Below are positions 3,897 to 16,636 of a stretch of DNA of 64,000 nt, in pieces. The DNA comes from Desertivirga xinjiangensis (lineage in GTDB: Bacteria; Bacteroidota; Bacteroidia; Sphingobacteriales; Sphingobacteriaceae), in the NCBI RefSeq assembly GCF_024436435.1, contig NZ_JAFMZP010000002.1:496001-560000 (forward strand), in the 5' to 3' direction. Each line of letters opens with the position of its first letter. The stretch's first letter is position 1. Below the pieces are notes generated by a model that had not been told where the DNA came from, searched no databases, and worked only from the letters and a program-made list of their open reading frames with translations. A program made the translations under genes and the position numbers.

Positions 3897-6791
3897 TCAC
3901 CCAAAAACACTTTGGGCTTTTCTAACGGTAGTTGACAGGTCAATTCCCTCACCAAGAATACCTGTAAACAGATCTCCGGTCTCTTTCAGCCGGTCAATGG
4001 CATTGTGGATCGTAAAATCACGCATAGTTAATCCTGGTTTTACCTCGTCCCATGTTACCGGCATGGAAACCGTAGCTCCGGGCTTTGGCCTGAGGGAATA
4101 TACCCCGGCAATGGTAGCTCCCGGACGGTTCTGCAAGTAGTCGAGATACATTTTTCCTTTGCGGTTGGCGATCATCCTTTCGAGGGTAGTAAAGTCAGGG
4201 ATCTGCTTATGTACCAGTTTGGCAATAATGTTGGCGAATATCTGGCTCTGATCATAGCTGTACTTCGCGCCGAGTGGGATATAGATATGAATGCCGGTAG
4301 AGCCCGATGTTTTTGGAAAGCTAGGCACATCTATGGCGTCCAGAACTTGCTTTACCTCCCGGGCTGCCTGTATCACCTGGTCGAAGGTCTGTTTGTCGGG
4401 GTCGAGGTCGATCACACAATAGTCCGGGTTGTCTGGAAACTGGGAACGGCTAAACCAGGGATTCATCTCGATGCAGCCCAGCGATGCCATCCAGAGTAAG
4501 GTAGCTTCATCATTTCCAAGTAAGTAGTCCTTTTCAATTCCTTCGCCGTTGGTGTGCGGCATGGTCCTGGCCCAATCGGGAGCCTTATCACGCACGTTTT
4601 TTTGATAAAAACTTTCACCGTGAATGCCACCGGGAAAGCGGTTTAAAGACATCGGGCGGTCTTTGAGATAAGGGAGCATGAAAGGCGCTACCTGGTGATA
4701 GTAGTTGAACATTTCGCGTTTGCTTATTCGATCTTCCGGCCAGTAGAGCTTGTTCAGGTGAGTGAATTTTAGGATGTGACCGTCAACTTCTTTTGCTTCT
4801 GTATCTTTTTGGGAAGAGAGTAATAAATTACTATTAATACTATTACTGTTCTTTGAAGGGTTAGTTTCTGCATCCTGCTCAACTTCTTCAACGATGGTTT
4901 CTGTATCCGCTTCTAACTCCAGCACCACCTCCTTTGGATTTTTATCGGTTCGCAAGCCTTTGAATGAGGCCTGCCGGACTTTACCATCACTGGTGATTTC
5001 CGCAAACTCTATTTCGCAAACAAGTTCTGGTTTTAACCAGGTAGCTTTTGCGCCTAATCTTCTTGGCCGGAATTGCGATGGTTCATCCACGTCGGGTTCT
5101 ACGTCGAACGCGCTTTCATTGGTGATCAAAGGTTTGAACAGCGCCATCATTTCTTTTTGCTTTGCCGTATTGAAACCGGTACCCACTTTGCCGATATAGC
5201 GAAGTATGCCTTTGTTATCGTACACGCCGATAGCGAGTGCGCTGAAGTACTTAACGGTTCCTTCATTTTTTGTAAATCCGGCTATAACCACTTCCTGCCT
5301 GCGTTTCACCTTAATCTTTAGCCATTCGCGTGAACGAGCATCAGAAGTATACAAACTGTCAGCGCGTTTGGCAATGATACCTTCCAGTTTCATCTTCCTG
5401 GCAGCTTCGAAGAACTCAATGCCATTTACTTCGAATGCCTGGCTCAGACGGATCTGTTTATTGTCTGAAGGCAAAACGGCTTTAAGTATTTCCCTGCGTT
5501 GGTACAAAGGTAATTCTGTTAATGATTTGCCTTCGTACCAAAGAATATCAAAAACGAAATAAACCAGGTTTGTAGTTTTAGTATTACGCCAGTTTTGTAA
5601 TGCTCCGAAATCTGCGTTGCCTTCTTCATCTAGTGTCACGATCTCGCCGTCAAGAACAGCATTTGCTTTCCAGTTCTCCAATAGCTCATTAATTGGTTTG
5701 AACTGATCGAAAGGCAGGTTGTTCCGGGAGATAAGTTCTGCGCGTCCATTTGTTACGAGCGCTACAGCGCGATAACCATCCCATTTAATCTCATAGATCC
5801 ATCCCGGGTCGTCAAAGGGAGTGTCGACCAATGTGGCTTTCATGGGTTTGATTTGGGACGGGATCTTTGCTACAGGGGCATCTTTTAACAAGGTCTCCAG
5901 GTAGGCAGCAGGGGAGGAGCTTGCGGCTTTGCCTAGCTCTTTTCCCGTTTCAGCGATCTCTATTTTTTCTTCCAAAGTGCCTGCTATTGTGGTTGATGCT
6001 TTCGATTCCGGGAAATTTTCCTCGGCAAGTTCGATCCATACAGGTGCATGATCGCTGGCTCCTTTCCAGCCGCGTACATGTTTATCAACTTGAGCGGTTT
6101 TAAGTCGGCCGGCAATTTTTTTGTTGAGGAGAAAGTGATCCAGCCTTAACCCTGCATTTCTGCCATAAGCGTCACGAAGGTAGTCCCAAAAAGTGTAGAT
6201 ACGTTCATGCGGGTAAAGTGCCCTGATCGCATCAGTCCAGCCCTGGTCTTCAAGTTCTTTATATGCTTCACGCGGTTCAATTCTAAAAAGGGCGTTCTTA
6301 AGATACTTTTCCGGTTTGTAGGTATCCATTTCTGTGGGCATCACATTATAATCACCAAGCAAGATCACGGGCAGGTCGAGATCAACCAAGTTTTGGGCAT
6401 GGAGGGCCAGGCGTTCCATCCAGCGCATCTTATAATCAAATTTCGGCCCTGGGTAGGGGTTGCCGTTGGGAAGGTAGATACAGCCGATTACGATGTCGTT
6501 GATGAAAGCTTCGATGTACCGGCTATGTGTAAATTCATCGTCCTGACCGGGCAAGTCATTACGAAGTTCCCGGATCTCCGTTTTAGATAAAATGGCAACG
6601 CCATTCCAGCTTTTCTGGCCGTGCCATATGGCATGATAGCCCGCACCGCGGATAGAGTATTCCGGAAATTTATTGTTTTCCGATTTCAGCTCCTGCAAAC
6701 AAACAATATCAGGCTGCGCTTCTTTCAGCCAGCGAAGCAGAATTTCAAGCCGGCCATTGATTCCGTTGATATTATAAGTTGCTATTTTCAT
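3897..6791 (-). CDS. ligD: Exonuclease III / ATP-dependent DNA ligase D fusion (nuclease-ligase-polymerase)
   Basis: One 964-residue frame joins three activities. Residues 1-257 are an exonuclease III (Xth) domain with the catalytic set in place: N7, E34, D147/N149 in LLGDYNVMP, D218 and D247/H248 in GASDHAPVW. Residues 310-615 are an ATP-dependent ligase with the adenylation motif KWDGYR (K336) and an OB-fold. Residues 660-955 are a LigD-type primase-polymerase (LKFTHLNKLYWPED, WMASLGCIEMNPW, DLDPDKQTFDQV, PKTSGSTGIHIY). The linker near 258-305 is low-complexity. The usual LigD 3'-phosphoesterase domain is not visible; the nuclease occupies the N-terminus instead. LigD acts with Ku in non-homologous end joining; no Ku gene is in the window. 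Confidence 0.9.
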   Translation of the reverse strand: MKIATYNINGINGRLEILLRWLKEAQPDIVCLQELKSENNKFPEYSIRGAGYHAIWHGQKSWNGVAILSKTEIRELRNDLPGQDDEFTHSRYIEAFINDIVIGCIYLPNGNPYPGPKFDYKMRWMERLALHAQNLVDLDLPVILLGDYNVMPTEMDTYKPEKYLKNALFRIEPREAYKELEDQGWTDAIRALYPHERIYTFWDYLRDAYGRNAGLRLDHFLLNKKIAGRLKTAQVDKHVRGWKGASDHAPVWIELAEENFPESKASTTIAGTLEEKIEIAETGKELGKAASSSPAAYLETLLKDAPVAKIPSQIKPMKATLVDTPFDDPGWIYEIKWDGYRAVALVTNGRAELISRNNLPFDQFKPINELLENWKANAVLDGEIVTLDEEGNADFGALQNWRNTKTTNLVYFVFDILWYEGKSLTELPLYQRREILKAVLPSDNKQIRLSQAFEVNGIEFFEAARKMKLEGIIAKRADSLYTSDARSREWLKIKVKRRQEVVIAGFTKNEGTVKYFSALAIGVYDNKGILRYIGKVGTGFNTAKQKEMMALFKPLITNESAFDVEPDVDEPSQFRPRRLGAKATWLKPELVCEIEFAEITSDGKVRQASFKGLRTDKNPKEVVLELEADTETIVEEVEQDAETNPSKNSNSINSNLLLSSQKDTEAKEVDGHILKFTHLNKLYWPEDRISKREMFNYYHQVAPFMLPYLKDRPMSLNRFPGGIHGESFYQKNVRDKAPDWARTMPHTNGEGIEKDYLLGNDEATLLWMASLGCIEMNPWFSRSQFPDNPDYCVIDLDPDKQTFDQVIQAAREVKQVLDAIDVPSFPKTSGSTGIHIYIPLGAKYSYDQSQIFANIIAKLVHKQIPDFTTLERMIANRKGKMYLDYLQNRPGATIAGVYSLRPKPGATVSMPVTWDEVKPGLTMRDFTIHNAIDRLKETGDLFTGILGEGIDLSTTVRKAQSVFG

Positions 6792-6808
6792 TTTTCCCCG
6801 GAGACGAC

Positions 6809-6830
6809 AAAGCCCCTTTCGGGGCTTTTT
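6809..6830 (+). terminator. Intrinsic-terminator-like hairpin
   Basis: AAAGCCCC (6809-6816), loop TTTC and GGGGCTTT (6821-6828) form a perfect 8-bp stem continuing into a run of T on the plus strand. It sits between the divergent ligase and dehydrogenase genes, where no annotated plus-strand gene ends; see findings. Confidence 0.65.
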
Positions 6831-7041
6831 GTGTATTTATTAATATAACAATTAAGGCAGGGCATGGTTTCTTACAGATAAATTTAGATTTCAGTGATAA
6901 AAGTGCAGGCAAGGCAAACAATCGATAGGAAGGATGTTATTTAGATGGTGAAGATAAAGAGGCTTGTGAGACATGGCTTGATAATGAGACTCATTGATTC
7001 AACAGGCTGTTGATCGAAAAAAATAACGATTATAATATATT

Positions 7042-8097
7042 ATGGAAGAGAAAAATATTAAAGCATTCGGAACTGAGGCTTCTGATGCACCCTTAGATCA
7101 GTTAAACATCCATCGCAGAAACCCAACACCTCACGACGTTGAGATCGAAATATTGTTTTGTGGCGTTTGTCATTCGGACCTCCATACCGCAAGAAATGAA
7201 TGGCATGGAACAATGTATCCCTGCGTTCCCGGGCATGAAATAATTGGTAAGATTGTTCGCATCGGTAGTCATGTCAGCAAATTCCAGGTTGGTGATATTG
7301 CCGGGGTGGGTTGTATGGTAGATAGCTGCCGCGAATGCGAGTACTGCAAGGAGGGATTGGAACAGTATTGCGAGCCCGGTGCAACACAAACGTATAATTC
7401 GATTGATAAACACTCGGGTATCCAGACCTTTGGAGGCTATTCAGAACGTGTGGTGGTTGATGAAGCCTTCGTGTTGCGAATACCTGAAAGTCTGGATCTG
7501 GCAGCTGCCGCGCCATTATTATGCGCAGGGATCACTACCTATTCGCCTCTGAAACACTGGAACGTCCTTCCAGGTCAGAAAGTTGGTGTTGTTGGCATTG
7601 GAGGCCTCGGACATATGGCTGTTAAAATTGCCAAAGCTATGGGTGCCGAGGTAATTGTATTTACAACTTCGCCGTCGAAGTTTGAAGATGCGAAACGCCT
7701 GGGTGCTGATGATGTGGTGTTGTCAAAAGACGAGGAGCAGATGAGCCGATATGCCGGAAAGCTGCATTTTGTGTTGGATGCTGTTTCAGCTCAGCACGAC
7801 ATTAACGCTTATTTGAATTTGCTTAGGGTAGATGGTTCTTTAGCCCTGGTGGGAGCTCCCGAATTGCCTCTTCCCGTGGCTGCATTTAGTCTGATACCAT
7901 CGCGCAGGAGCTTTGCGGGTTCAATGATCGGCGGCATTGCTGAAACACAGGAAATGCTTGATTTCTGTGCAGAGCATAGAATAGTTTCTGATATTGAGAT
8001 AATTGATATCCAGCAGATAAATGAGGCTTATGAAAGATTACTAAAGGGAGATGTTAAGTATCGCTTTGTGATAGATATGGCTTCATTGAGAAAATAA
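7042..8097 (+). CDS. Zinc-dependent alcohol dehydrogenase (YahK/cinnamyl-alcohol type)
   Basis: The 351-residue protein is a medium-chain dehydrogenase/reductase. Catalytic zinc ligands are C43 (FCGVCHSDLH) and H65-E66 (PCVPGHEIIG); the structural zinc lobe carries four Cys in DSCRECEYCKEGLEQYC. The nucleotide-binding motif is VGIGGLGHMAVKIAKAMG. Members closest in pattern are broad-range NADP(H) aldehyde reductases/alcohol dehydrogenases such as E. coli YahK. It is cytoplasmic, stands alone, and is followed by a strong hairpin terminator. The exact substrate cannot be told. It marks the last ordinary gene before the carbohydrate loci. Confidence 0.92.
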   Translation: MEEKNIKAFGTEASDAPLDQLNIHRRNPTPHDVEIEILFCGVCHSDLHTARNEWHGTMYPCVPGHEIIGKIVRIGSHVSKFQVGDIAGVGCMVDSCRECEYCKEGLEQYCEPGATQTYNSIDKHSGIQTFGGYSERVVVDEAFVLRIPESLDLAAAAPLLCAGITTYSPLKHWNVLPGQKVGVVGIGGLGHMAVKIAKAMGAEVIVFTTSPSKFEDAKRLGADDVVLSKDEEQMSRYAGKLHFVLDAVSAQHDINAYLNLLRVDGSLALVGAPELPLPVAAFSLIPSRRSFAGSMIGGIAETQEMLDFCAEHRIVSDIEIIDIQQINEAYERLLKGDVKYRFVIDMASLRK

Positions 8098-8974: not shown

Positions 8975-11900
8975 ATGGATAGAGGATTATTACTCAGATT
9001 TTCCTTCTTTAAGCTGTTCGGTCTCATAAGTATATTGATACTAGATCCGCAATACGTAGCGGCCCAGCAAAAGCAAATTGTCACTGGAACCGTGGTTTCT
9101 TCGGATGACGGTTTGGCAATTCCTGGTGCTTCCGTTATTCAGGAGGGTGCAGCTACAGGAACATCTACGGATCAGAACGGTAATTTCCGGCTCAGTATTA
9201 CACCTGGGGCGAGGGTGATCTTTAAGTTTCTCGGCTATACCGAGCAGCGCATAAAGATCGATAATAATGAAAATGTGACCGTCCGGCTGAAACCTGCGGC
9301 TAACGATCTTAACGAGGTTGTTATAACTGGATATACCCAGCAGAAAAGGTCGGACGTCACCGGAGCAATAAGTACTATCTCCGGTCAGGAGATACTGAAA
9401 TCTCCTGTTACGAATGTTACCAATGCCCTTGTTGGAAAGGTACCAGGCGTTGTGGCTCAGCAAACAAGCGGGAAACCGGGAGCAAATGCAGCCAACTTAT
9501 ACATTCGGGGAAGGGTTTCCAATAATTCTACCGCTCTCATCATAGTTGACGGAGTGGAACGCCAGTCCTTCGGTGATATTGACCCTTCAGAAATTGAGAG
9601 TATTAATATCCTTAAGGATGCATCCTCTGCAGCCATGTACGGTATTAAAGGGGCGAACGGCGTGATTGTGGTAACCACCAAAAAGGGCCGGGATGGCAAA
9701 GCAAGAATTTCGTTGTCAGCAAATTATGGCATCGTTGGCTATACAGGTGTTCCAAAGGTTCTGGATGCTTACGAATCTGCACTCCTCCATACTGAAGGTC
9801 AGATCAACAGTGGCTCTGCCCGGACGTTTTCAGATGAGGATCTGGAAATTTTCAGAAATGGGACAGGTGATCCTTTACTTTATCCGAATGTTAACTGGTT
9901 TGAAACAGTTACCAGGGACCAGTGGTCGCAAAATCAGCAGAACCTCAATATCTCTGGTGGAGGTAAGATTGCAAATTACTTTGTCTCGATCGGGCACACT
10001 TTTGAAGACGGCATGTTAGAGGACTTTAAAAGCCCGCTAAATTATAAAACTACGCCTGACTATAATAGAACTAACTTTCGGTCGAATATAGATCTTAAGC
10101 TTACCAAAGGGACTACGGTAGGTGTAAATATTGGCGGACGTCTTGAAAATCGATACTCTATTCAGGGATTTTCTCCTTCTGCTGAGCCGGATGATATTTA
10201 TGCAAACGGCCTGGAAGGGTTTTTGAGCCGCGTGATCGCTATTCCTTCATGGGGATTACCTTACTTCCCCGAGTATACGAATACGACCGACCCGAGTCTC
10301 ATAAGACTTTCTGACCGCTATAATCATGTTCAGGATGATAATTTAGGAGTTAACACCCATAACCCGTACTCTTTGCTAGTACGTGGTGGATATCTTCAAA
10401 CTGATAATAATGCTATTGAGACAATTTTTACTTTAAATCAAAGCTTAAACAGCGTACTGAAAGGTCTGTCGGGCAAAGCTTTATTAGGATATGATGCCTA
10501 TGTGTCGAGCGGCAAAAGACAGTATGGTAACAGAGCTGTTTACAGGGTAGACCGTACCCTGAAAGATATTGTATATGTAAGTGGAAACAACGATCCGCTT
10601 AGCACCATTACGTCTTCAAGGAGTGGTTACTTCAAAACCAACCTTCAGCTTTCCCTAAATTATAATAACAAGTTCGACAAACATAGCGTTTCAGCTCTTT
10701 TACTGGGTCAGCGTGAATTCAGGGCTTCAGGTACGGGAGCTAATTACTCTACGGCACCTGCTCCCTTTACTAACCAGGGTGTTATTTATAATTTATCTTA
10801 TAATTTCGACGAGAAGTATTTTCTACAGGCCAACGGATCTTACATGGGCTCTGAAAATTATGCCAAGTCTGAAAGATACGGCCTTTTTCCTTCTTTCTCA
10901 CTAGGTTATACGGTCTCAAATGAGCCTTTCTTAAAAGATATTTCCTGGATTCAGCAGATTAAATTCAGAGGCTCATGGGGCTTAGTGGGTATACCGAGTG
11001 CCGGAACGGGAAGGTTTTACTATAATAACAATTATGGCCCGGGAACCTCCATGCCATTTGGCGAGGATCCCCTGATCAATGCTCCTACTATAATTCACAA
11101 CCTTGTTGGAAATCCTGAAGTAACCTGGGAGAAATCGGTGAAACGTAACATCGGTCTTGAGAGTTCCTTTCTAAGAGGAAAGATTGCGTTCAATGCGGAC
11201 CTCTTCGACGATAAACGGTACGACATTCTTCTCGAAAGAAACAACAGCAGCTTTGCAACCTATGGTGAAACGCTTCCGAAAGTGAATTATGGTGAGAACT
11301 ACAACAGAGGCTATGAGCTGGAGTTGAAATACCGGAGTACGATCGGAGATTTTGGATACAATATTGGAGGACAGCTTACTTATTCAAAGAACAAAGTTGT
11401 AATTGCTGATGAAGCGCCTGGTACTCCGGATAACCTTAAAAATACCGGCCTTCCTATAGGCCAGATGAGAGGCTACCGGACTTTAGGCTTCTTCAATGAC
11501 CAGGCTGAGGTGGATACATGGGCCAAAAATGGGATAACCAACATCCCGTTTATTCCGGGAGATCTGAAGTATGCGGATCTCAACGGAGATGGTATCATTA
11601 ATACTGACGACCGCTCGCCTTTTGGATTTTCTACCATCCCTGAGTATACCTTTGGAATAGACCTGGGATTTAATTACAGGGGATTCAGCATATCAGCTCT
11701 ATTACAGGGAGCAGAAAATGTAAGCTCTGATGCCCTGTTCTTCAGCAATGCCCGTAACCAATATTACGAGCCCATGATGGGAAGATGGACTCCTGATACC
11801 AAAAACAACGCTACCTGGCCGGTGATCCGTGAAGGTGTTAAGCAGGGAAACCCCAATGAACAGGTAAGCGACTTCTATCAAACCGATGCCAGTTATCTGA

Positions 11901-12127
11901 AACTTAGAAACGTTCAGGTTCGCTATCAGTTTGGTAAATCAGTAACCAAAAAACTTCATGTGAATGGTCTCAGCGTTTTTGTAACGGGCCAAAACTTAAA
12001 AACATGGACTAAATTCTATGGCTATGATCCGGAAAACGCTTATTCCCTTTCCGGCACGTACGGTAACAAAATGACCATATACCCAAGTACCCGGGTGTTG
12101 AACTTCGGCTTAAACATACAATTATGA
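8975..12127 (+). CDS. susC: SusC-like TonB-dependent outer-membrane transporter 1
   Basis: The 1050-residue protein has a signal peptide (cleavage after about residue 30, VAAQQ), a carboxypeptidase-D-regulatory-like domain (about 35-110, TGTVVSSDDGLAIPGASV), a TonB plug (about 115-235, with NEVVITGYTQQKRSDVTGA and DVNI-type signature ESINILKDASSAAMYGIKGANG) and a long C-terminal beta-barrel. With its SusD partner it forms the pedal-bin glycan importer of the outer membrane. Its stop codon overlaps the SusD1 start by 4 nt (ATGA), so the pair is translationally coupled. It opens carbohydrate block A. Confidence 0.95.
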   Translation: MDRGLLLRFSFFKLFGLISILILDPQYVAAQQKQIVTGTVVSSDDGLAIPGASVIQEGAATGTSTDQNGNFRLSITPGARVIFKFLGYTEQRIKIDNNENVTVRLKPAANDLNEVVITGYTQQKRSDVTGAISTISGQEILKSPVTNVTNALVGKVPGVVAQQTSGKPGANAANLYIRGRVSNNSTALIIVDGVERQSFGDIDPSEIESINILKDASSAAMYGIKGANGVIVVTTKKGRDGKARISLSANYGIVGYTGVPKVLDAYESALLHTEGQINSGSARTFSDEDLEIFRNGTGDPLLYPNVNWFETVTRDQWSQNQQNLNISGGGKIANYFVSIGHTFEDGMLEDFKSPLNYKTTPDYNRTNFRSNIDLKLTKGTTVGVNIGGRLENRYSIQGFSPSAEPDDIYANGLEGFLSRVIAIPSWGLPYFPEYTNTTDPSLIRLSDRYNHVQDDNLGVNTHNPYSLLVRGGYLQTDNNAIETIFTLNQSLNSVLKGLSGKALLGYDAYVSSGKRQYGNRAVYRVDRTLKDIVYVSGNNDPLSTITSSRSGYFKTNLQLSLNYNNKFDKHSVSALLLGQREFRASGTGANYSTAPAPFTNQGVIYNLSYNFDEKYFLQANGSYMGSENYAKSERYGLFPSFSLGYTVSNEPFLKDISWIQQIKFRGSWGLVGIPSAGTGRFYYNNNYGPGTSMPFGEDPLINAPTIIHNLVGNPEVTWEKSVKRNIGLESSFLRGKIAFNADLFDDKRYDILLERNNSSFATYGETLPKVNYGENYNRGYELELKYRSTIGDFGYNIGGQLTYSKNKVVIADEAPGTPDNLKNTGLPIGQMRGYRTLGFFNDQAEVDTWAKNGITNIPFIPGDLKYADLNGDGIINTDDRSPFGFSTIPEYTFGIDLGFNYRGFSISALLQGAENVSSDALFFSNARNQYYEPMMGRWTPDTKNNATWPVIREGVKQGNPNEQVSDFYQTDASYLKLRNVQVRYQFGKSVTKKLHVNGLSVFVTGQNLKTWTKFYGYDPENAYSLSGTYGNKMTIYPSTRVLNFGLNIQL

Positions 12128-13770
12128 GATTACTAAATAAATACTTATACCTTTTAACAGGTGGTTTGACCTTTTTGTCTTTCTCATGCAAAAAAGACTT
12201 CCTGCAGCGCGATCTTTCCGTTGTAGTGGATGAGAACGCTGTTTTTCAGGACACCTTGCTTGCGGAAAATTTCGCAACCAACAGCTATGCGTTTTTAATT
12301 GACGATTACGCAAGACTGAACGGAAGTAACAAGGGAATGACCGGCCAGTTTACTGACGAAAGCATCTCAAATAATAACGAGTCTTTCGTATCCTCGATGA
12401 CCGCAGGAAATTATCTGAGCACCCAGGCTACGGAGATCGTTACGATTTACGGTCAGATGTACAAAGGGATCAGAAATGCCAATACTACTTTAGCCCGGCT
12501 GGACGACTACGAGGGTAACTGGTGGAAACGATCAAGAATAAGAGGCGAGCAGCTATTTTTGCGGGCCTTCTATTATTTCGAGTTAGTAAAGCGATTTGGA
12601 GGTGTGGTGATCATCGATAAACCTCAGCCTGTTAGCGAAGCTACGACAGACCTTCCCAGGAACAGCTATGAAGAGACAGTAGCATTCATTTTAAAGGATC
12701 TGAATAATGCCATTGAGCTTCTGCCTGATGAATATCTTGACAAACGGTATAGTGGGAGGGCAACCAAGGGAGCGGCCATGGCACTGAAATCACGATTGTT
12801 GTTACTTGATGCCAGTCCCCTGAGGAATCCGGAGAATAACACTGACAAATGGCGTGTTGCTGCTGAAGCTGCTGCTGCTGTTAAATTAATCAACAAATAC
12901 AAACTGGAAGACAGTTACGCCGACGTCCTTGTTCTGCCGGCCTCCGAAGAATACATTATGATAAAACCCAGGGCTCCGCGCGTATTGCAAGGGTATCTTA
13001 AGGACTTCATTATGCCTGCAAGTTACGGGGGGGCACAAAGTACCATTTCTCCTACCCAAAACCATGTCAACTTATATGGTATGCAGGCCACAGGTTTGCC
13101 AATAGGTGATCCTCTTTCGGGGTACGACGAAAACAATCCTTATGTGGGCAGGGATCCGAGATTTTATGTGAATATACTTTATAACGGATCGTCCTGGCAG
13201 GGGCGTGCCGTGGAAACTTTTATTGGCGGCCGCGATGTTCGCGGAGATAACGTTACCAAAACAAGTTATTACGTAAAGAGACTTTGGCCTGAGTCTGTGC
13301 GGAGTACAGTGTCAAATTCGCAGGGACGGGTCAACTTTATTTTCTTCAGGTACGCTGAGATACTTTTAAACCTTGCAGAAGCCAGGAACGAACAGCTTTC
13401 AGCCCCCGACCAGGAAGTATATGACGCAATCAATGAGGTAAGAAACAGGGCGGGTATGCCCGATCTGGAGAACCTCGACAAAGATAAGATGCGTGAAAGG
13501 ATCCGGGATGAACGCGCAGTCGAATTCGCCTTTGAAGAAATGCGCTGGTGGGATGTGCTTCGCTGGAAAGCAGGGGCTGAAATTGTCGACCAAACGCTTT
13601 ACGGCATGAAGATAGATAAGGTGGGAAACACTCTTACTTACCAGGAAGTGCCTTTGGAGTCAGCTCATCAACGCCCTGGATTCCAGGAACGCTGGCATTG
13701 GTATCCCATTCCGCTGGCCGAAATACGAAAGTCTACAGGAGCTTTAGAGCAAAGTCCTGAATGGAAATAG
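12124..13770 (+). CDS. susD: SusD-like surface glycan-binding lipoprotein 1
   Basis: The 548-residue protein has a lipoprotein signal (LSFSCKKDFLQRD) and the SusD/RagB fold with its TPR-like region, including QLFLRAFYYFELVKRFGGVVII and ALKSRLLLLDASPL; the C-terminal part has NEVRNRAGMPDL and FAFEEMRWWDVLRWK. It caps the SusC1 barrel on the cell surface and binds the oligosaccharide before import. Coupling to susC1 by a 4-nt overlap confirms the pair. Confidence 0.95.
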   Translation: MRLLNKYLYLLTGGLTFLSFSCKKDFLQRDLSVVVDENAVFQDTLLAENFATNSYAFLIDDYARLNGSNKGMTGQFTDESISNNNESFVSSMTAGNYLSTQATEIVTIYGQMYKGIRNANTTLARLDDYEGNWWKRSRIRGEQLFLRAFYYFELVKRFGGVVIIDKPQPVSEATTDLPRNSYEETVAFILKDLNNAIELLPDEYLDKRYSGRATKGAAMALKSRLLLLDASPLRNPENNTDKWRVAAEAAAAVKLINKYKLEDSYADVLVLPASEEYIMIKPRAPRVLQGYLKDFIMPASYGGAQSTISPTQNHVNLYGMQATGLPIGDPLSGYDENNPYVGRDPRFYVNILYNGSSWQGRAVETFIGGRDVRGDNVTKTSYYVKRLWPESVRSTVSNSQGRVNFIFFRYAEILLNLAEARNEQLSAPDQEVYDAINEVRNRAGMPDLENLDKDKMRERIRDERAVEFAFEEMRWWDVLRWKAGAEIVDQTLYGMKIDKVGNTLTYQEVPLESAHQRPGFQERWHWYPIPLAEIRKSTGALEQSPEWK

Positions 13771-13807
13771 AATATTGGTTTAGTTTCTAATTCTAAAAAG
13801 CATTAAA

Positions 13808-16636
13808 ATGAATTTTTTAAAATACTATAGGACAGCCTTTTTGGTAATGCTGGCGTTTTCCTGGACCCGGGCCGACGCACAAGATCCTGATTCCATTGGG
13901 CGTACAATATTTTTGTCTGAAGAGGAGATCATTTATTCACCTTTTTACTCAAAGAAAAACAAAGAAACCGGGGCGGCGGTCTCAACCCTGGCAACAAAAG
14001 ACCTTCCCCAGATACCATTAGGCGGTTTGAATAATATCTTAGCCGGCAGGGTTCCCGGCTTGTATGTACAACAGACAGGAACCAAACCTGGTGCTGAATC
14101 TGCGACCTTCCGCATCCGCGGAACTTCAACCTACAACTCGGGAAACAACCCTCTTGTTTTGGTTGATGGTATCTCCAGAAGCCTGCAAAATATTGATCTG
14201 AATGAAATTGAGAGTTTTACAGTGTTGAAGGATGCGGCTTCTTTAAGCTGGTATGGTCTTAATGGAGGAAATGGGGTTATACTCGTAAAGACTAAATCGG
14301 GTAAACCATCACGCAATTTAATCAATTTTAGCTCACAGTATGGATTTCAGCAGATGGATAGGCATATTCCATCACTCGATTCCTACACGTATGCTACGCT
14401 TTATAACGAAGCGCTTTCCAATAGCGGGCAGGCCGGAGGTTTCTCACAGGAACAACTGGATGCTTATCGTTCCGGATCGAACCCGTTTCTCTATCCAAAT
14501 AATGACTATAAAAACGAGCTGATGCGCAGTTCAGCTCCCGTACAGCGCTATGTGTTGTCGGCATCCGGGGGAACGGAAGCTATCCGGTATTTTGTTCATA
14601 CCAGTTATTTTGACCAGGATGGTCTTTTTAAAAATGCTAAAGGAGACGGTTTTAATTCGCAAGTACGCTTTAATCGTCTTAATTTCAGAACAAATCTGGA
14701 TGTGAACGTGACTAAAACTTTAAGTTTTGGCTTATATGCAGCAGTCAGGGTTGAAAACCGTAACAATCCGGGAGACAACGAAACCGATGCGTTAATTAAC
14801 GACATTTACAATCTGCCACCGAATGCATTTCCTTTGCTTAATGAAGATGGTACTTTTGGCGGAACCAATACTTATGATAACAATCCATTAGCAAGGTTAA
14901 CGAGGTCGGGGAGCCGGAGAGATATACTCAGAGGTTCTTTTGCTACTATAACGGCTAAACAAAAACTGGACTTTGTTACCAAGGGGCTTTCGGCTAATGT
15001 GCTTTTTGGCTACGATGCCAGCGGAACTTATACCTCTGGTTTTGTTCAAGATTATGAACTATATGATTTTTCTCAGAGCCCGGTTCGTATAATCAGCCCG
15101 GTTACAAATCCGAACGTAGGTTACAGGGCTTCATCTTTCAGCGGAAATAACAGGAAAAATGAGATCTGGATAGGTCTGGATTATGACCGAAGCTTTGGTC
15201 TGCATTCCATTGACGCGGGTTTCAGGGGACAGCGCTCTGTCGATAATGACGCTTCACGCCTGGAGTATCGCGACCAGCAACTTGCCGCAAGACTTAGTTA
15301 CGGATACAAAAGCCGCTACTTCATCGACCTGACTGGTAGTTATGCCGGTTCTGAGAACTTTGCACCCGAACAACGCTATGATTTCTATCCTGCAGCTGCT
15401 ATTGGTTGGATCGTTTCTGATGAAGGCTTCTTAAAAGCAAGTAAAAGTGTTAATTATTTAAAGTTGAGAACCTCTTACGGGCTCACAGCGAATGGCGGAA
15501 TAGGTGGGACCCGTTTACCTTTCAGGACCTTGTATAACAGGAACGGTGGAGGTGGCGGTTATGCTTTTGGTACCTCGTTCACTGCTACAACCAGCGCCGG
15601 AGAACAAAATCCTATGGGCAATGCTGATATCCATGCCGAAAGAATCAGAAGGTTTAATATCGGCTCGGATATAAGGTTCCTGAACAACGCGCTCAGCCTA
15701 AGTGCAGATTATTTTAACGAAAGGCGATCGGATATATTAACTGAGGATTTCAGGCCAGGGATTTTGGGCATTTCCTTAGTAAGTGTAAACGGCGGGGTAG
15801 TAAGTAACAAGGGATTTGAAACTTCTTTGATGTTTACTAAAACCCTTGGTAAGTTAGATCTTGCCCTGAACGGTAATTATACTTACGCTTCTAATAAGAT
15901 TATCGCCCGGAACGAGCTTTCGGGAACGCTGCCTTACCAATCAACCGTAGGACATAATGTTGGAGGAGTAACAGGGACAGGAGGAGGAAAGCGGTTTTAC
16001 CTTTCTGATGGGCTCTTCAAAAACCAGGATGAAATTGATAACAGTCCCCGACAAACGCTTTCAGAAAACGTCTATCCGGGTGACATCAAATACCGCGATA
16101 TAAATATGGACGGAGTGATAGATGTAAATGACCGGGTAGAAACCAACTATACCGACATCCCTCACAGTTATTACGGTTTCGGCTTTAATCTGGGTTACGG
16201 CATATTTGCCCTTAACGCCCAGTTCCAGGGAATTCAGGGTCGCACGATGAGCGTATACTCATTGATTAATTCAGGTCCAGACCGTTTGAATACGTATAGC
16301 CTTGATCGTTGGACACCGGAAACTGCCTCCTCGGCGAGATGGCCGCGTCTGGCTGCTGCTGACAGGGGAAACAATGAGGCTGCCTCTGATTTCTGGCTAA
16401 GATCTGCGGACTTTTTAAAACTTAAAACGGTCGAGTTGGGTGTGTCCTTGCCGAAAGATGTTCTAAGGAGGGTAAGGCTTCAGCGTGCCAGGGTATTTGT
16501 AAGCGGATTTAATGTGTTGTCATTCTCTAAAATTCAAAAAGATTTCGACATAGATCCGGAAATGAATTATGCTGGGTATGGTAATGATTATCCAAACCTG
16601 AGAACTTATTCTTTAGGGTTAAACGTGCAGTTTTAA
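13808..16636 (+). CDS. susC: SusC-like TonB-dependent transporter 2 (lacks N-terminal CarboxypepD_reg domain)
   Basis: The 942-residue protein has a signal peptide (to about residue 25, ADAQDPD) and passes after some 30 residues straight into the plug (ETGAAVSTLATKDLPQIPLGG, SATFRIRGTSTYNSG, IESFTVLKDAASLSWYGLNGGNG). The carboxypeptidase-D-regulatory domain present in SusC1 is missing. The beta-barrel is full length, ending in the aromatic-rich strand SLGLNVQF. It follows SusD1 by 37 nt and precedes its own SusD. The two pairs may take up different fragments of one glycan, or one may be specialised for smaller products. Confidence 0.93.
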   Translation: MNFLKYYRTAFLVMLAFSWTRADAQDPDSIGRTIFLSEEEIIYSPFYSKKNKETGAAVSTLATKDLPQIPLGGLNNILAGRVPGLYVQQTGTKPGAESATFRIRGTSTYNSGNNPLVLVDGISRSLQNIDLNEIESFTVLKDAASLSWYGLNGGNGVILVKTKSGKPSRNLINFSSQYGFQQMDRHIPSLDSYTYATLYNEALSNSGQAGGFSQEQLDAYRSGSNPFLYPNNDYKNELMRSSAPVQRYVLSASGGTEAIRYFVHTSYFDQDGLFKNAKGDGFNSQVRFNRLNFRTNLDVNVTKTLSFGLYAAVRVENRNNPGDNETDALINDIYNLPPNAFPLLNEDGTFGGTNTYDNNPLARLTRSGSRRDILRGSFATITAKQKLDFVTKGLSANVLFGYDASGTYTSGFVQDYELYDFSQSPVRIISPVTNPNVGYRASSFSGNNRKNEIWIGLDYDRSFGLHSIDAGFRGQRSVDNDASRLEYRDQQLAARLSYGYKSRYFIDLTGSYAGSENFAPEQRYDFYPAAAIGWIVSDEGFLKASKSVNYLKLRTSYGLTANGGIGGTRLPFRTLYNRNGGGGGYAFGTSFTATTSAGEQNPMGNADIHAERIRRFNIGSDIRFLNNALSLSADYFNERRSDILTEDFRPGILGISLVSVNGGVVSNKGFETSLMFTKTLGKLDLALNGNYTYASNKIIARNELSGTLPYQSTVGHNVGGVTGTGGGKRFYLSDGLFKNQDEIDNSPRQTLSENVYPGDIKYRDINMDGVIDVNDRVETNYTDIPHSYYGFGFNLGYGIFALNAQFQGIQGRTMSVYSLINSGPDRLNTYSLDRWTPETASSARWPRLAAADRGNNEAASDFWLRSADFLKLKTVELGVSLPKDVLRRVRLQRARVFVSGFNVLSFSKIQKDFDIDPEMNYAGYGNDYPNLRTYSLGLNVQF

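Follow-up and report, generated by a model that had tools for sequence, protein, structure and literature searches.

The 64,000-nt stretch of the Desertivirga xinjiangensis genome analysed here (contig NZ_JAFMZP010000002.1, positions 496,001 to 560,000, termed the window) encodes a single 964-amino-acid protein in which an exonuclease III (Xth) domain precedes the ligase, OB and primase-polymerase (Prim-Pol or Pol) domains of LigD. This Xth-Lig-Pol fusion is a new LigD variant. It is probably a LigD whose N-terminal phosphoesterase (PE) domain has been exchanged for an Xth like NExo of Neisseria meningitidis, and which serves the Ku/LigD pathway of nonhomologous end joining (NHEJ) at broken ends.

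Architecture of the fusion protein

The gene has an ATG start and no internal stops (Table 1), and each domain scored above its Pfam cut-off: Exo_endo_phos at residues 4-248 (105.9 bits), DNA_ligase_A_M (PF01068) at 326-494 (120.4 bits), DNA_ligase_A_C (PF04679) at 514-617 (85.2 bits) and LigD_Prim-Pol (PF21686) at 691-942 (306.8 bits). NCBIfam recognised the same protein both as DNA ligase D (TIGR02776, 554.4 versus a cut-off of 373.2) and as exodeoxyribonuclease III (TIGR00195, 237.2 versus 182.55), the ligase part also matching TIGR02779 (293.9 versus 227.75). Taken together, the two profile sets assign residues 1-255 to exonuclease III. Ligase motifs I (with its lysine in EIKWDGYR), IV and V and the OB region are intact, as are the polymerase DxD (IDLDPD) and motif II. 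A preliminary description, made from the letters of this DNA alone, had recognised an Xth fused to a LigD-type ligase-polymerase and had seen no PE domain. Both points hold when the full protein is searched, linkers included, with the PE profile LigD_N (PF13298) giving no match even at an E-value of 1.

A PE domain hidden between Xth and ligase is rejected: besides the missing profile match, the linker of ~52 residues is about half the length of the 107-position PE profile, is unconserved across 23 aligned fusions, and has a predicted local distance difference test score (pLDDT) below 50 at residues 262-293 of an AlphaFold2 model, all of which speaks against such a domain. The second linker also contains a low-confidence stretch (residues 627-654).

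Table 1. Features of the fusion gene, in window coordinates
Feature	Position	Strand	Basis
Xth-Lig-Pol fusion gene	3897..6791	minus	single 964-aa open reading frame, profile matches, recurrence in other genomes
Xth domain, exonuclease III family, NExo-like (residues 1-257)	6021..6791	minus	profiles, solved relatives, residue alignment
Xth catalytic residues N7, N9, E34, Y106, D147, N149, D218, D247, H248	within 6021..6791	minus	alignment
Codon of L168, equivalent to NExo H167 (AP-site gate)	6288..6290	minus	alignment; role of H167 from the available part of PMC6294502
Xth-ligase linker, unconserved (residues 258-309)	5865..6020	minus	alignment of 23 fusions, AlphaFold2 model
LigD ATP-dependent ligase and OB fold (residues 310-625), motif I lysine K336	4917..5864	minus	profiles, motifs
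Second linker, mostly unconserved (residues 626-671)	4779..4916	minus	alignment of 23 fusions, AlphaFold2 model
LigD primase-polymerase (residues 672-945), catalytic D795 and D797, motif II SGSTGIH	3957..4778	minus	profiles, motifs

Distribution and descent

At least 21 of 399 sampled Sphingobacteriaceae genomes carry the fusion, that of the window included, and at least 19 of them have it at full length in a single open frame; the family and order scans took best matches with two candidates scored per genome, and shortened fusions may be missed. Named carriers belong to Mucilaginibacter, Pedobacter and Paradesertivirga. Among the matches listed, the full-length frame recurs in 18 other genomes of the family at 65-82% identity to the window protein, which excludes a missing stop in the assembly, the artefact that the preliminary description had considered, and establishes the fusion as a real gene. 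Two further copies are shortened, one ending at query residue 868 (G120) and one interrupted by a contig end (G305), and an order-level sample (400 genomes, overlapping the family sample) adds one carrier among the matches listed (G406). The survey of Bacteroidota that the description had proposed places the fusion in 2 of 395 genomes sampled across the phylum, that of the window (G000) and G036, both of the window's family. Two other examined genomes of the window's genus have no fusion. An origin from phages or other viruses is rejected: coverage stayed below 80% in all 81 phage records that gave a match, and a scan of viral contigs returned a single ligase-only locus.

We placed the Lig-Pol half in a careful tree of 60 rows (support given as bootstrap/SH-aLRT, the latter a likelihood-ratio test of branches), in which the 23 fusions form one clade (100/100). 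Closest to them is a Lig-Pol protein (L046; 99/93), followed by seven PE-LigDs, six of Mucilaginibacter and one of G158 (100/98), and the whole assemblage is nested within a larger group of PE-LigDs (100/100). Because of this nesting, the ancestor of the fusion most likely carried a PE at its N-terminus, where Xth stands now. In a quicker tree of the Xth half, the fused domains form one clade (SH-aLRT 100) with eight standalone genes, a ku-linked gene of Mucilaginibacter pedocola (L064) and L191, separate from the other standalone NExo-like xth genes of the family. L191 (positions 5868-7805, genome G163), which branches within the Xth-Lig-Pol fusions, is itself a 646-aa Xth-Prim-Pol protein that lacks the ligase domain. 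The genome of the window holds a further Xth copy, L005, and its weak similarity to the fusion linker continues past a stop.

At two loci (L064 and L200), standalone members of the fused-Xth clade adjoin PE-LigDs of the sister group in convergent orientation. Xth and its LigD partners were thus neighbours in sister lineages, although simple read-through would not have joined genes so arranged.

Lig-Pol LigDs that are 48-49% identical to the fusion also occur in metagenome-assembled genomes of Parachlamydiaceae (L081, L082, L083); in the Pol tree they group with Chitinophagaceae/Bacteroidota, and gene transfer is possible.

Predicted activity of the exonuclease domain

The nearest solved relatives of the fused Xth are 2voa, which we take to be an A. 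fulgidus enzyme with apurinic/apyrimidinic (AP) endonuclease activity, and NExo. The latter is a 3'-phosphatase of the exonuclease III family without AP endonuclease activity, in which H167 excludes AP sites (cleavage is acquired in H167G/S) and N108 helps the phosphatase chemistry (PMC6294502; this and the other cited papers are drawn on for the parts of their texts available to us). In the AP endonuclease Xth of D. radiodurans, the position equivalent to H167 is Gly198, which is reported to be critical for binding and cleavage (PMC7548837).

We compared these residues across 24 distinct fused Xth sequences, excluding duplicates and the partial matches L024 (in two pieces), L043 and L057. All nine checked catalytic positions are conserved in every sequence, in agreement with the preliminary description of the Xth as intact. 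The position equivalent to 167 is Leu throughout, neither the His of NExo nor the Gly/Ser of AP endonucleases, that equivalent to 108 is Asn in 19 copies (the window protein among them), and that equivalent to 204 is Leu (22) or Met (2). Canonical exonuclease III of the genus has Ser108, Gly167 and Arg204 (3/3), and the separate copy in the window's own genome (L008), with Gly at 167, bears the AP-endonuclease signature; its best solved matches include 3g91/3w2x, presumably Mth212, and 2jc5, presumably NApe, as well as 4b5h. The last of these is NApe (PMC6294502). By these resemblances the genome appears to hold a pair of enzymes like NExo and NApe, of which the fused partner is the NExo-like kind.

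The Leu gate in 24/24 copies, together with the conserved catalytic residues, leads us to predict that the fused Xth acts as a 3'-phosphatase/exonuclease in the manner of NExo and not as an AP endonuclease. On this sequence-based prediction, the AP-endonuclease reading in the preliminary description is not supported, in view of that gate and of the separate genomic enzyme that bears the AP signature.

Proposed role at broken ends and its alternatives

Breaks produced by oxidation or by Fpg/Nei often end in 3'-phosphates or sugar fragments that block repair (PMC6294502; PMC3825254). As to what the fusion does, on which substrates, in what order and with what dependence on Ku, we infer the following: Xth would clear damaged ends of 3'-phosphates, of 3'-phosphodiester remnants and of a few 3' nucleotides to leave a 3'-OH, Prim-Pol would next fill the short gap, and the ligase domain would then seal it. 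The protein would act on broken ends in the Ku/LigD pathway, probably alongside a separate PE-LigD, and could probably repair gaps and nicks in the absence of Ku as well; covalent coupling of the domains could, in our view, restrict resection. Recruitment by Ku is likely, because of the descent from LigD and the gene neighbourhoods.

Whether a Ku gene lies elsewhere in the genome was a question raised in the preliminary description: there is one, at C1:57289, unlinked to the fusion, and neither the 64-kb window nor a 19.5-kb stretch surrounding the fusion gene contains a Ku match. Each of the 23 genomes searched has Ku; 22 of them carry the fusion and one carries Xth-Pol. Among 20 fused loci viewed over ~8 kb on each side (L165 shortened by a contig end), five have a second, PE-bearing LigD at most 1.5 kb from the fusion, one of them with Ku as well. 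In one of three further named loci (L054), Ku lies 1.4 kb from the fusion, and its gene overlaps that of an Fpg-family glycosylase adjoining the fusion (L054:6536-8090). In M. pedocola, ku is followed after 2 nt (taking a GTG start) by a NExo-like xth of the fused-Xth clade (L064:8993-10545); close by, the frame of a PE-LigD is interrupted within Pol by a stop at codon 823.

The second LigD beside the fusion has the domain order Lig-PE-Pol in four loci (L173, L174, L178 and L182; by Pfam for L174, by tblastn for the others). We know of no LigD domain order like it.

The proposal that Xth replaces a missing PE, made in the preliminary description, stands in part. Within the one polypeptide it agrees with the descent of Lig-Pol from a PE-Lig-Pol protein; the cell as a whole, however, is not deprived of PE, a domain found elsewhere in all 23 genomes (again 22 with the fusion and one with Xth-Pol), so that replacement is confined to one paralogue. 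The longest PE-bearing open frame reaches at least 843 residues in 22 of these genomes and 700 in that of the window (G000). Two of the genomes (G365 and G396) have four Ku and four PE matches each.

Several observations weigh against a NExo-like partner of Ku-dependent joining, the presence of PE in every carrier being one of them. Most fused loci (15/20) have no other NHEJ gene within ~8 kb and Ku is nearby in only one, while two further named loci (L058, L059) have no NHEJ gene in their flanks, up to 6 kb. Ku in 23/23 of the genomes searched, compared with 107/151 in the family, is weak evidence, and we reject this co-occurrence as proof of a link to Ku. Leu at position 167 is shared by 61/61 standalone NExo-like genes as well as by 5/5 NHEJ-linked ones; since no NHEJ gene occurs in 58 of the 60 stretches examined around the family's other xth genes of the NExo-like kind (the best 60 of 113 non-fused rows, ~7 kb on each side, some shortened by contig ends), Leu is no mark of NHEJ, and a general linkage of NExo-like xth to NHEJ within the family is rejected. 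The two linked stretches are those of L191, the Xth-Pol fusion, and L200. Position 108 is Phe in 5/24 fused copies, the 2voa enzyme has Cys at the gate, so that the Gly/Ser rule is not absolute for AP endonucleases, and the gate Leu is neither the His of NExo nor Gly/Ser, its consequence being a prediction. The AlphaFold2 model of the fusion is poor (mean pLDDT 66). Finally, the fused Xth domains are not monophyletic, the standalone L005, L187 and L188 falling among them: either the Xth part may have had a less straightforward history than Lig-Pol, or some copies may have lost Lig-Pol.

The chief rival, which we judge rather unlikely, is a one-chain enzyme of gap or base-excision repair that works mainly independently of Ku: Fpg/Nei would leave a gap with a 3'-phosphate, which Xth would clean, Pol fill and Lig seal. 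Mycobacterial LigC1 and Prim-PolC, with ExoIII, XthA or EndoIV, have been used in trans to reconstitute the same steps after Fpg (PMC5663958), and the Lig-Pol LigD of B. subtilis has 5'-deoxyribose phosphate lyase activity and acts in reconstituted base-excision repair (PMC4770248). An Fpg-family gene lies ~1.4 kb from the fusion in two of the 20 loci (L168 and L180), another is the gene overlapping ku in L054, two occur near a ligD-xth pair of Dyadobacter, and Ku is not nearby in 19/20 fused loci. However, the Lig-Pol half belongs to the LigD family and clade, Ku is present in every carrier genome searched, and Leu at the gate speaks against the idea that the fusion itself incises AP sites.

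The state of the LigD that adjoins Ku in the window's own genome (L010, C1:57289-60098) raises another possibility. Its PE and Pol are intact, and between them lies a degenerate ligase that has lost the OB region and in which motifs I, IV and V read KLKG, SGFIAKE and WLEIS, respectively, whereas its relatives in the genus (L013 and L014) retain these motifs and the OB region; L010 thus seems unable to ligate, judging by these residues. The fusion might then lend its ligase in trans to this PE - degenerate Lig - Pol protein, Xth being a tether or a bonus activity. We think this improbable: a second intact Lig-Pol paralogue (L004, at C19:204452) could serve equally, part of the adenylation domain of L010 is still recognised by Pfam (45.0 bits), and the long PE-bearing frames of the other 22 genomes leave it without force as a general explanation of the fusion. 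That the fusion is neutral, without joint function, is very improbable. Relatives do lose domains, as in L191 (Xth-Pol without ligase) and L005 (Xth and part of the linker), and one copy has a frame change in Pol (L056/G120), but the at least 19 full-length copies, the others 65-82% identical to the window's, and the catalytic residues conserved in all 24 Xth sequences tell against it.

Related genes on plasmids

On plasmids, NExo-like xth is strongly associated with ku/ligD, in favour of a LigD variant acting at broken ends. In 10 of 12 plasmid records, sampled at even steps from 289, ligD and/or ku lies within 9 kb of xth (L022, L249-L252, L254-L258), although several of these records are Rhizobiaceae relatives and the 10 matches are not independent; the two unlinked records are L244 and L253, the latter with a broken xth. 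Six further plasmid loci, chosen by hand, gave ligD or ku within 9 kb in four (L243, L245, L246, L248), and none at that distance in L247 and L244 (which is also in the even-step sample). Canonical xth on plasmids had ku/ligD nearby in 0 of 4 cases, by annotation and tblastn, in a small control (four examined of eight listed of 30 records) whose Pseudomonas member may not be a repair enzyme. We take that gene to resemble Crc.

On Sphingobium and Rhizorhabdus plasmids, a ligD (Lig-Pol, PE not found) overlaps xth by 4 nt, and a Dyadobacter plasmid carries PE-LigD followed by xth, with the two Fpg-family genes mentioned above near the pair. The gate is Leu in 16/16 plasmid xth copies, and the catalytic residues are conserved in 15/16, L258 being the exception; in L023, compared separately from these 16, Glu replaces Asp at position 217. 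L258 (positions 9001-12531, Mycetohabitans rhizoxinica B12) is a 1176-aa Xth-PE-Lig-Pol frame annotated as DNA ligase D, the Xth part of which is damaged (Asn at the D146 equivalent and an altered C-terminus), and strain B49 (L023) has two separate genes instead of this single frame.

A wider proposal, which we offer tentatively, is that NExo-like Xth may be an overlooked third component of end joining: a nuclease dedicated to healing 3' ends, encoded beside plasmid ku and/or ligD in Alphaproteobacteria, Betaproteobacteria and Bacteroidota and fused at the place of PE in Sphingobacteriaceae to give one chain for healing, filling and sealing, with trans-acting LigD variants replacing the decayed ligase of the Ku-linked LigD in the window's own genome.

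By annotation, some plasmids hold repair islands (L020 of Dyadobacter, L245, L252 and L260) in which xth and ligD are accompanied by some of the following: Fpg-family glycosylases, SOS response-associated peptidases (presumably HMCES-like), ImuA and error-prone polymerases.

Relation to known repair systems

The fusion shares its ligase and primase-polymerase families with the LigDs of Pseudomonas (PE-LIG-POL) and Bacillus subtilis (LIG-POL), and scores above the LigD cut-offs. Its LIG-POL order is that of the B. subtilis enzyme, which is without PE, a domain of many but not all LigDs (PMC8656161). It differs from LigD in bearing an N-terminal Xth instead of PE, and in the lack of a Ku match near its gene. 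NExo, among the closest solved structures, has the same catalytic set and the Asn108 equivalent found in most fused copies; unlike it, the fused Xth has Leu for His167 and Leu/Met for Arg204 and is joined to a ligase and a polymerase.

The mycobacterial LigC/Prim-PolC system with ExoIII, XthA or EndoIV carries out the same three kinds of step with related enzymes, of which EndoIV, without strong exonuclease activity, performed best (PMC5663958); these are separate proteins, whereas the fusion is one chain and descends from LigD, not LigC. In the alphaproteobacterial plasmid loci examined, the related xth shares 53-67% identity with the fused Xth and in many of them lies beside ku/ligD, but there the genes are adjacent and not fused. 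The frame of Mycetohabitans B12, from a betaproteobacterium, is unlike the fusion in retaining PE while its Xth is damaged.

According to a survey of ~6,000 bacterial genomes, every NHEJ-bearing member of the Bacteroidetes has the conventional form, and the word 'exonuclease' is absent from its text (PMC7719229). Our literature search, covering titles and the starts of abstracts outside subscription papers and preprints, returned no Xth-LigD fusion. The fusion suggests that LigD can exchange the module that cleans ends for an enzyme unrelated to it, and it marks a subtype of exonuclease III as a candidate partner in bacterial end joining. It also makes a sharp prediction, 3'-phosphatase activity and no AP endonuclease activity, for a candidate single-chain enzyme that would heal, fill and seal, in a genome that is also one where the Ku-linked LigD seems unable to ligate.

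Elsewhere in the window, open reading frames at 8975-16636 resemble, as judged by eye, SusC/SusD-type outer-membrane uptake proteins.

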